From Ascochyta rabiei (taxonomy: Eukaryota > Ascomycota > Dothideomycetes > Pleosporales > Didymellaceae): 64,000 nucleotides of DNA. The position numbers and the translations under genes were made by a program. Shown here piece by piece: positions 48,006-52,937 of the stretch (the first letter of the stretch is position 1; each line of letters begins with the position of its first letter). The stretch is taken from positions 868,001 to 932,000 of the forward strand of contig NC_082412.1 of the NCBI RefSeq assembly GCF_004011695.2, read 5' to 3'. The notes under the pieces were generated by a model. The model had not been told where the DNA came from. It ran no database searches and saw nothing but the letters and a program-made list of their open reading frames with translations.

Positions 48006-49316
48006 TTATGCCCAAATACGCAGCTAGGAGGAGGGTCAGTCAACGGCAAAGGGAGGTGTGCTGCAGGCTCGACCTACCATGGAGTCCCATGAGCCAGTGC
48101 ACAGACTAAGCGCATCGTTGCTAACACCAAGACAGCTGACACGGTTGTCGTGCCCTTGCAGCGTACCGACACGCTCGCCACGGAGAACGTCCCAGACCTG
48201 TGATTTCGTTAGGAACGTCTACAATCTATATTGTTTGGCGACTGCTTACCTTGCACTCAAAGTCATCGTAACCAGCAAACAGCAGGCGGCCAGACACGGA
48301 GAAGGCAACAGATGTGATGCCGCAGACGGGCTCGGGAATCTAGAAATGTGCGTTAGTGGTCGAAGCCTTCGTATCGTGACTGGTTATGCCATGCGTACCT
48401 GGTATGAAGCTAGCTCACGATCGGCACGGATGTCGAACAGACGGCAAGAAGCATCGTCAGAACCGGTACCAAAGGCATTGCCGTTGGGGAAGAACTGGAT
48501 GGCGTTGATGTCCGAGTCGTGGGCGGCGAACGTCTGCACACACTTTTGCTGACGAATATCCCATAGCTTGGCAAAGGCATCGCAGGCGCCGGATACGAAT
48601 TGGTTGTGGTCGAGAGGGTTGATGCTCAGGCTCATGACATCGCCGAGATGGTCGGCAAACTCGTGCACCTTGGAGCCGGTTTCCAGGTCCCAAAGCACGC
48701 AGGTCATGTCGCCGGAAGAAGTGAGGATTCGCTTGTCGCTGATGAATCTGCAGCAGGACAGATAGCCCGAGTGGCCAGAGAGCTCGCGCGCGACGCGTGT
48801 AGGACCTTCTCGTGCCGACAGGTTGTAGATGGAGCAGATGTTGTCGAGACCACCGCAGGCGACGTAGTTGCCCGAGGGGGAGTAGGCGCAGGTCATGACC
48901 CACGAGGAGCGCAGGGGGATGGCGTGCACCTTGTTCGTTGTGTAGGCGTCCCAGATGATGAGCTTGCCGTCTTGCGAGGCCGAGACGAGGTGTCGTCGGT
49001 CGGTGGACCAGTGCATGGCGTAGATCTTTGCGAGATGGCCCTTGAGTGTGCGCTTTGTCTTCATTGTGAGGCGCGGCAAGGCCTCGACACGGTCGCGGGC
49101 GACATCGCGGACTGCAGGCAGTGGTTAGCAGGGTGTGAGAGACAGGAGGAGGTAGTGGTGGGTGGTGGGTGGTGGAGTAGTGGGCATGGCAGAAGGCGTA
49201 CGGGTTGTGTCAGCGAGCTCGTCCTTTTTCCGTTTTATCCTGTCCTTCAGGGCCTCGGCGTCGCGGCGCGCGACCTGGATTTTCTGCTGGATGGATTCTT
49301 GGTTCATGTCGGCCAT
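48006..49316 (-). CDS. sfaD: Heterotrimeric G-protein beta subunit
   Basis: WD40 propeller that pairs with G-gamma at the plasma membrane and controls growth, mating, conidiation and virulence in fungi. Exons complement(48006..48023, 48078..48197, 48250..48339, 48399..49111, 49202..49316); 351 aa. The N-terminal coiled coil ([20 protein letters not shown]) binds gamma. Seven WD repeats follow, e.g. [26 protein letters not shown] [92 protein letters not shown]. The last exon codes only LRIWA plus stop, completing SWDSM-LRIWA; it is easily missed. All splice sites are canonical. The symbol is that of the Aspergillus orthologue (yeast STE4 is more distant). Confidence 0.95.
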
Positions 49317-50298
49317 GCTACACGCTGGATGCGGGTGGAAAGAGGGTGTGGTGTCGCGGCGGGCGCGCGGGCGAGAGCGAGAGCGAGAGCGAGAGCAAAA
49401 GCGGCGAGAGAAAGTGCTGGTGCTGGTGCTGGTGCTGGTACTGGTGCAGTGCAGGCGCAGGCGCAGGCACAGGTACAGGTGCTGGTGCAGGGGCAGGCAC
49501 AAGTGCAGGTACAAGTGCAGGTGCGGGCAAATCCAGGGGCGCCTCGCAGGGAGCGCAGCAGCCCGGGCAGCGAGCGTCTAGCGGAGGCAGCAGGCGGGCA
49601 GAGGCAGCAATGGCGGCGGGCGCGCGCGTGGCAGCTGCAATTGCTGGCGCAAGGAGGGCGATGGGGCGGCGTGCGGGTGGTGTGGTGGTGGAGAGGACGG
49701 CGGGTGGTGGAGGAGGTGAGAGCGAGATGCGCACCACCCAGACGAGCCAAGCACCGGGAGACACCAGCTGGGGTCAAAGGAAGCTGCCCTGTCTCTGCCG
49801 ACTACCGCGACAATGGGCTGCGCGGCAATGCGGGGCGGGCGGCGCTGGCGGTGTTGTGCTGTGAATGTGATTTGCCGCCTGCGTGCAGTGCGCCCTGTCT
49901 GTCAGCGATAATTGATTCCGCGATGCTGTGCTCCTGTGCTCCGGTGCTGCTCCACGACAACTGCGCGGCCTGTTCTGCGCTGCACCCTGCACCCTGCACC
50001 CTGCGCCTGCGCCTGCACCCTGCACCTGCACCTGCACCTGCACCTGCACCCTGCACCCTCGGCCTGACGAAGAAGGCGCGCGCAATCTCCTGCAACGCTG
50101 GACCGCACCTCCTCTCCTGGCCTGCCGGGCGCCTGATTCGCTGACTCGCCCGTGGCTTCCTCGCACCCCGGCAGCCAATCTGGACGGGCCCGCTGCTATG
50201 CCCAAACCGCCTCACCACCACGCGCCGCGCCCAAGTCTGTTGTTTTCGTTTGGCACTTCGAGAACGGTCAGCAGCGCCACCCATCCCCTGTTGCCGTC
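49317..50298. promoter_or_regulatory. Divergent promoter, G-beta and adenosine deaminase-like
   Basis: 982 bp. The G-beta side carries GAGAGC repeats (49374-49400), CTGGTG (49421-49445) and GCAGGTGCAGG-like repeats (49447-49530). The other side carries the opposite strand of similar units, CCTGCACCTGCACC (49982-50060). Together they form imperfect inverted minisatellites about 500 bp apart. Long frames across the region come from these repeats. Confidence 0.5.
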
Positions 50299-52791: not shown

Positions 52792-52928
52792 GGCCTCATG
52801 GTCTAGTGGTATGAGTAAGTTTACAATAACCTCCATGGTGGCCGACAAAGCTAACACACAACTGTTCCTGCTTTGGGAAACACTCTCGAGTCTGCAGGAG
52901 GCCCCGCGTTCGAATCGCGGTGGGGCCC
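52792..52928 (+). tRNA. tRNA-Pro (UGG) with anticodon-loop intron and extra insertion
   Basis: Acceptor stem GGCCTCA (52792-52798) pairs with TGGGGCC (52921-52927), one G-U. D arm GTCTAGTGGTATGA follows TG (box A TGGTCTAGTGG). Anticodon stem CCTGC (52867-52871) pairs with GCAGG (52894-52898); loop TTTGGG gives anticodon TGG. A 15-nt intron sits after position 37 (52878-52892), the normal eukaryotic place. T arm CCGCG-TTCGAAT-CGCGG (52904-52920, box B). In addition 50 nt (52815-52864) interrupt positions 24 and 25. Without both inserts the molecule matches yeast tRNA-Pro(UGG) closely. Whether the extra piece is removed is unknown; if not, this is a pseudogene. Confidence 0.85.
52815..52864 (+). 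other. 50-nt intron-like insertion within tRNA-Pro
   Basis: Starts GTAAGT, contains GCTAAC (52850-52855) ten bases before its end, and is 50 nt long: the pattern of a fungal mRNA intron. It ends ACTG, not AG. It lies between D and anticodon stems, between boxes A and B. Exact edges can shift by a base or two. Confidence 0.7.
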
Positions 52929-52932
52929 GTTC

Positions 52933-52937
52933 TTTTT
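52933..52937 (+). terminator. Pol III terminator of tRNA-Pro
   Basis: Five T starting five bases after the tRNA discriminator base, the usual RNA polymerase III stop. Confidence 0.8.

Follow-up and report, generated by a model that had tools for sequence, protein, structure and literature searches.

The window, a stretch of 64,000 nt from the Ascochyta rabiei genome (RefSeq assembly GCF_004011695.2, contig NC_082412.1, positions 868,001 to 932,000, forward strand), contains a tRNA-Pro(UGG) gene that is interrupted twice. One of the interruptions is an ordinary tRNA intron at 37/38, and the other is a 50-nt insert resembling an mRNA intron, located directly after the gene's nucleotide 23 (standard position 24/25). 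The parts of the gene are as follows, with positions given for the window:

52792..52928, forward strand: tRNA-Pro(UGG) gene, 137 nt including both inserts; read by ARAGORN as tRNA-Pro(tgg) after removal of the 50-nt insert
52792..52814, forward strand: exon 1, 23 nt, D arm and 5' strand of the acceptor stem
52799..52809, forward strand: A box TGGTCTAGTGG, uninterrupted here, 7/7 fixed positions of TRGYNNARNNG
52815..52864, forward strand: mRNA-intron-like insert at 24/25, 50 nt, GTAAGT...GCTAACACACAACTG
52815..52820, forward strand: 5' splice-site-like GTAAGT, the same hexamer as in 17/32 inserts
52850..52855, forward strand: GCTAAC resembling a branch point, with 52854 as the presumed branch A, 10 nt from the insert end
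52862..52864, forward strand: 3' end of the insert, CTG, where 32/34 inserts have CAG or TAG
52865..52877, forward strand: exon 2, anticodon loop and 5' strand of the anticodon stem, anticodon TGG at 52874-52876
52878..52892, forward strand: ordinary tRNA intron at 37/38, 15 nt, ARAGORN i(37,15)
52893..52928, forward strand: exon 3, 3' strand of the anticodon stem, variable loop, T arm, 3' strand of the acceptor stem, C73
52907..52917, forward strand: T-arm core / B box CGTTCGAATCG, found by B-box pattern search
52933..52937, forward strand: Pol III terminator-like T run, read from the sequence

The features of a functional tRNA gene are present, namely a cloverleaf with an acceptor stem of seven pairs, an A box following the consensus TRGYNNARNNG, a B box, and a T-run terminator. 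In the window as it stands, no tRNA was detected by ARAGORN and Rfam, and removal of the 50-nt insert led ARAGORN to report a tRNA-Pro(tgg) with a 15-nt intron. The coordinates given in the first-pass annotation for the tRNA-Pro(UGG) and its 15-nt intron at 37/38 proved correct to the base, both in the sequence and by ARAGORN. The 50-nt insert described there, starting with GTAAGT and featuring GCTAAC ten bases before its end, was likewise found, and its boundaries could be fixed because the joined exons of the window gene are identical (72/72) to those of a second tRNA-Pro(UGG) gene, L023. The CTG in place of AG at the insert end is indeed present in the sequence, and the doubt about clean splicing that had been attached to it persists. 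As for the AGTT/AACT pairing reported inside the insert, the four base pairs exist, and the bulge-helix-bulge score for this insert amounted to 5/10 pairs. A TATA-like element upstream of the window gene scores 5/7, a score found for five of the 26 genes compared, with none scoring lower.

A search of the genome for further tRNA-Pro(UGG) genes had been recommended, and a DNA search with the window gene yielded two, both on contig C9 and on the minus strand. L023 (near 362200) carries a clean D-loop intron (GTAAGA...GACTAAC...CAG). In L024 (near 807200), nucleotide 11 is followed by a clean intron, and a further one, ending in CAT, occupies the site used in the window gene. Both genes contain inserts, and no intact UGG gene was found by this search or by the joined-exon search described below, the latter not being exhaustive. 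The L024 tRNA differs from that of the window gene at four bases representing two compensated stem pairs, and selection must therefore have acted on it as a tRNA, at least up to the recent past. The two inserts without a terminal AG, that of the window gene and the second of L024, occupy the same site in the same isoacceptor, with the branch motif 10 and 11 nt from the end, respectively; no likeness between them beyond the signals was found (z = 1.1).

To place the window gene in its genomic context, 40.9 Mb in 23 contigs were scanned, of which contig C23 (55 kb) appears to be mitochondrial because of the many tRNA genes on it. Pattern searches and reading of the flanks recovered no fewer than 28 nuclear tRNA genes, which together hold 34 mRNA-intron-like inserts distributed over ten sites. 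These genes belong to the families Pro(UGG) (3), Pro(AGG) (4), Pro(CGG) (2), Gln(CUG) (4), Gln(UUG) (1), His (4), Cys (2), Ser(GCU) (3), Ala(CGC) (2), Leu(UAG) (1), Leu(CAG) (1), and elongator Met (1), six of them carrying two inserts each (L024, L088, L105, L076, L063, and L057). For 32 inserts, the interrupted positions, counted on the joined gene, follow nucleotides 10, 11, 15, 18, 19, 23, 25, 26, and 33, with a single insert in the variable arm instead; two further His inserts are also located after nucleotide 11. In both Pro(CGG) genes, an insert behind C34 splits the anticodon, only three bases ahead of the 37/38 intron. Left out of these counts was L180 (C16:351101-351176, forward strand), a degenerate Gln-like copy featuring acceptor-stem mismatches and an insert reading GTAGGT...CTGACTAG; copies of this kind, which bear such an insert and appear to be dead, do occur.

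Approximately 28 of the 116 nuclear tRNA genes seen (88 + 28) contain such inserts, the 88 ordinary genes being ARAGORN calls taken as they stand and not inspected by eye one by one. Because the census drew on B-box patterns and an Rfam search in which 63 of 1588 candidates were scored, it is incomplete; tRNA-Phe, for example, was not found among 134 B-box sites. An initial pattern search, with 13 matches versus 25 for the reversed pattern, served only as a lead, and its matches were kept or dropped by reading the sequence. Patterns combining the T arm or B box with a T run gave 127 versus 20 (100 of the 127 being listed) and 66 versus 6 matches relative to the reversed control, and further ones 27 versus 16, 21 versus 10, 45 versus 14, and 10 versus 2. 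Given the controls for the 27 and 21 matches, about half of these may be due to chance, and the tRNA-like ones were retained.

Interruptions are present in all genes that were found for Pro (9), His (4), Gln (5), and Cys (2), and also in those for Ser(GCU) (3) and Ala(CGC) (2). A DNA search with ten joined tRNA genes resulted in 29 hits, none of which ran through a whole gene; the hits start or stop where ectopic or 37/38 inserts meet the exons, to within about 7 nt. This search supplied two of the four His genes and was not exhaustive, since the known gene L010 was missed. Unless uninterrupted copies were overlooked in the searches or are missing from the assembly, the cell can hardly dispense with the tRNAs that these genes encode. 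Pattern scans of viral and prokaryotic sequence collections for the same tRNA-intron junctions returned no match.

The inserts share a common build. Their 5' end is GT in all 34 cases, with the hexamer GTAAGT in 17 of 32, and their 3' end is AG in 32 of 34, the exceptions being the window insert and the second L024 insert. Lengths range between 48 and 68 nt, with a median of 52 nt (32 inserts). The motif CTRAY was detected in 30 of 32 inserts, and in 28 of those 30 the branch A precedes the 3' end by 10-12 nt; L110 and L120 have CTAAT at 10 nt plus a closer CTAAC. The two inserts lacking CTRAY are the second of L076 (TAAC at 11 nt) and that of L167 (TAAC at 14 nt), and the two further His inserts possess CTRAY with the branch motif at 11 nt. 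Taken together, CTRAY or TAAC is situated 10-12 nt from the insert end in 33 of 34 cases, the exception being L167 with 14 nt. By eye, the introns of a G-beta protein gene in the window (Pfam G-beta) are alike (GTACGC...CTAAC...CAG and GTACGC...CTAAC...TAG). For fungal U3 introns, GT-AG ends, RCTRAC, and a branch-acceptor distance of 6-36 nt are given in the section of PMC5832005 that deals with splice signals, and, judged by sequence, the signals of the inserts are those of fungal mRNA introns as described there. A test of whether the 5' splice site or the exon-2 side restores the A box showed 6-7 of the 7 fixed positions retained to one side of the first intron in 22 of 26 genes, a result to be read against chance matches estimated to be frequent.

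Excision of the inserts was evaluated for 26 genes. With the inserts removed, all 26 were read as tRNA by ARAGORN, 23 of them with the expected isotype; the remaining three were both Cys genes, called Ala, and the Met gene L167, called Ser. With the inserts in place, only four of the 26 gave any call, with a wrong isotype, a wrong anticodon, or (L171) a wrong 5' start, so that none was read correctly. Furthermore, a blind test was carried out in which every GT...TRAY...AG excision was tried at B-box sites not reading as tRNA. Among 134 B-box sites, 92 gave direct tRNA calls and 42 did not, and excision rescued 20 of the 42, compared to 0 of 840 in a control with shuffled upstream sequence. The right isotype was obtained for 16 of the 20 rescued sites among the excisions displayed (not for L037, L054, L088, and L024), and four of the 92 direct calls represent misread intron genes (L011, L023, L081, and L171). 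The 22 sites that were neither called directly nor rescued comprise the window gene, L167, the Asn-like L154, and 19 that look like chance B-box matches by eye. L154 (C4:1318361, forward strand) is an Asn-like tRNA copy that ARAGORN does not read and that is perhaps dead. The finding made in the window exceeds chance, because 34 inserts of the same build exist and 20 of 42 sites were rescued versus 0 of 840 shuffled ones.

Comparison of related genes revealed that exons are far better conserved than inserts. Over the pairs compared, exons are 96-100% alike, and first inserts are 65-83% alike in 17 of 19 pairs and 96% alike in the other two. In Pro(AGG), the exons agree at 86-87 of 87 positions while the first introns reach 65-83%; the corresponding values for exons and first inserts are 96-99% versus 67-96% in His, 99-100% versus 73-96% in Gln(CUG), and 96% versus 76% in Cys. 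Regardless of whether they hold one intron or two, the four Pro(AGG) genes yield the same 86 letters when joined. Empty sites were also encountered: the Leu(CAG) gene L081 carries an intron that is missing from L142, the two being identical over 82/82 positions, and the Met gene L167 carries one missing from L137, with 105/106 identical positions. The three scattered Ser(GCU) genes (L170, L171, and L172) contain an intron with two differences over its first 36 nt and thus better kept than in most families; this conservation may reflect an additional function or recent spreading.

For the inserts as a class, that of the window gene included, these results make it very probable that they are spliceosomal introns of the U2 (mRNA) type residing in tRNA genes. 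This was one of three possibilities considered in the first-pass annotation for the window gene, and for the class it is supported by the rest of the genome with its 34 GT starts, 32 AG ends, and branch motifs. Another was that of ectopic tRNA introns; these would be removed by the tRNA endonuclease, on the model of archaea, Cyanidioschyzon, and nucleomorphs. A precedent is an archaeal tRNA-Pro(UGG) that, besides its intron at the canonical site, has others at 25/26 and 56/57 (PMC4090602). However, with one rigid motif layout, the 32 inserts form on average 3.3 of the 10 pairs of a bulge-helix-bulge, compared to 3.9 for shuffled sequences, and none of the inserts attains 8 or more; this reading would, moreover, leave GT, branch motif, and AG unexplained. 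Ectopic tRNA introns are therefore highly improbable for the class. That all insert-bearing genes are pseudogenes or assembly artefacts is equally hard to credit. It is true that eukaryotic D- and T-arm insertions are treated as rare and mostly as pseudogenes in the part of the review concerned with them (PMC4090602), but here all Pro, His, Gln, and Cys genes found are interrupted, no whole copy emerged from the joined-exon search, by which one known gene was missed, and exons remained 96-100% alike while the first inserts diverged to 65-83% in 17 of 19 pairs. The dead-copy possibility raised for the window gene is accordingly very unlikely to extend to the class, and the window copy itself may have been disabled recently in view of its CTG end. 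Group I and group II introns were ruled out by size, 50 nt being too short.

The spliceosomal reading leaves the window insert in a special position. It has the GT start, the branch motif, and the length of a spliceosomal intron and lacks the AG at its 3' end; it is intron-like and, by its apparent origin, one of the set, rather than a proven member. The last splicing step of the window gene is uncertain because the intron ends in TG, and use of a non-AG 3' splice site and a recently disabled copy stand at about even odds. A dead or dying gene without a usable 3' AG, with L023 supplying the tRNA-Pro(UGG), comes just short of an even chance. It would account for the CTG end and agrees with the weak TATA-like element upstream, with the existence of L023 as a clean GT...AG gene with identical exons, and with the presence of at least one degenerate intron-bearing tRNA copy in the genome (L180). 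However, the exons match L023 at 72/72 positions, the T run is intact, and no sign of decay is visible, although a very recent loss or copying would be invisible; the branch motif and its 10-nt spacing have been kept as well. Furthermore, L024 shows the same oddity at the same site together with compensated exons, so that two independent losses would be needed. Splicing of the window insert and the second L024 insert at their non-AG ends (TG and AT) is plausible, at somewhat under an even chance. The branch motif is properly spaced from both ends (10 and 11 nt), and BG and HAU, the two classes occurring here, can be used by yeast spliceosomes without Prp18, as the portion of PMC10711555 devoted to such sites describes. 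On the other hand, the same portion (PMC10711555) indicates low use of such sites with a working Prp18, the Prp18 gene is present in this genome, and AG has been kept in 32 of 34 inserts. Loss of Prp18 as the cause of the non-AG ends was ruled out, its gene having been found.

If the inserts are spliceosomal introns, the following course of events can be envisaged. RNA polymerase III would transcribe the interrupted tRNA gene, and the spliceosome would recognise GTAAGT and CTAAC and join the tRNA exons in the nucleus, by which the cloverleaf would be rebuilt. The tRNA endonuclease and ligase would require this rebuilt fold to remove the separate 37/38 intron afterwards. The tRNA endonuclease probably measures the folded body of the tRNA, and the spliceosome presumably acts first because this body would be absent before exon joining. 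The cell thus probably needs its mRNA-splicing machinery in order to obtain working tRNAs. As a bolder and tentative proposal, which we consider somewhat less likely than not, translation of all Pro, His, Gln, and Cys codons would depend on the spliceosome, with pre-tRNAs passing through two unrelated splicing machines in series (the split anticodon of Pro(CGG) included) and two tRNA-Pro(UGG) genes having inserts spliced without a 3' AG. If true, tRNA supply would be coupled to mRNA splicing capacity.

Fungal U6 snRNA genes, in S. pombe and others, are known to contain mRNA-type introns, i.e., GT-AG introns of about 50 nt in a Pol III gene. Two U6 genes were identified in the present genome: L176 (C9:1076009-1076174, forward strand), interrupted by two introns of 66 and 53 nt with GT-AG ends, and the intronless L175 (C14:905425-905524, minus strand), the joined L176 sharing 101 identical bases with L175. 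The tRNA inserts resemble the fungal U6 introns in their GT-AG ends, their length of about 50 nt, and their Pol III host, and L176 here has two introns; unlike U6, which is one RNA, the hosts here comprise 28 tRNA genes, in which ten different sites are occupied. The rRNA genes, in turn, are transcribed by Pol I. Spliceosomal introns in ascomycete rRNA genes (PMC11889510, in its description of these introns) are comparable in being mRNA-type introns in non-Pol II genes, but their hosts are rRNA genes. Similarity to fungal U3 snoRNA introns, as far as these are characterised in the corresponding sections of PMC5832005, extends to canonical fungal splice signals, a strong bias toward the 5' half, and paralogues both with and without an intron; the host there is U3, with tRNA mentioned a single time in that paper, and the average length is 92 nt compared to a median of 52 nt here. 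The tRNA introns of archaea, Cyanidioschyzon merolae, and nucleomorphs, as summarised in passages of PMC4090602 and PMC3978253, likewise occupy the D arm and other sites, occur several per gene, and accompany a 37/38 intron. However, according to the same passages, those of archaea and C. merolae rely on the bulge-helix-bulge and the tRNA endonuclease, in place of which the inserts described here have a splice-site and branch consensus, and those of nucleomorphs are 3-24 nt long with an unknown mechanism, which also sets them apart from the inserts.

In open PubMed Central full text, a corpus from which subscription papers are mostly absent, no report of mRNA-type introns in tRNA genes was found among the top-ranked papers listed. 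The main text of a review on tRNA introns (PMC4090602) does not contain the string 'spliceosom', and the article on the A. rabiei draft genome (PMC4835772), in which 125 tRNA genes were predicted by tRNAscan-SE and ARAGORN, does not contain the word anticodon in its main text. The finding is genuine and larger than first noted, comprising a putative class of mRNA-type introns in tRNA genes, of which the window gene is an atypical example. A standard tRNA finder misses genes that are probably essential, as illustrated by the 0 of 26 read correctly by ARAGORN with the inserts in place. Pairs of genes with and without an intron, set in tiny, structure-bound exons, offer material for studies of intron gain and may also be useful for defining the minimal needs of the spliceosome on a Pol III RNA. 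Textbook tRNA introns are cut out by a dedicated endonuclease and ligase; if the spliceosome joins tRNA exons, a natural genome would have stepped across a basic line between two splicing systems, making entire amino-acid families dependent on the spliceosome.

Two further observations were made in the course of the analysis. The genes L143 (C4:381982-382053) and L144 (C8:1398957-1399028) have near-identical bodies and the anticodons TGC and TGT, respectively, representing an apparent tRNA-Thr body with an alanine anticodon. In the window, low-complexity stretches resembling CACCAG/CACCTG were seen by eye at 49300-50000, upstream of the G-beta protein gene.
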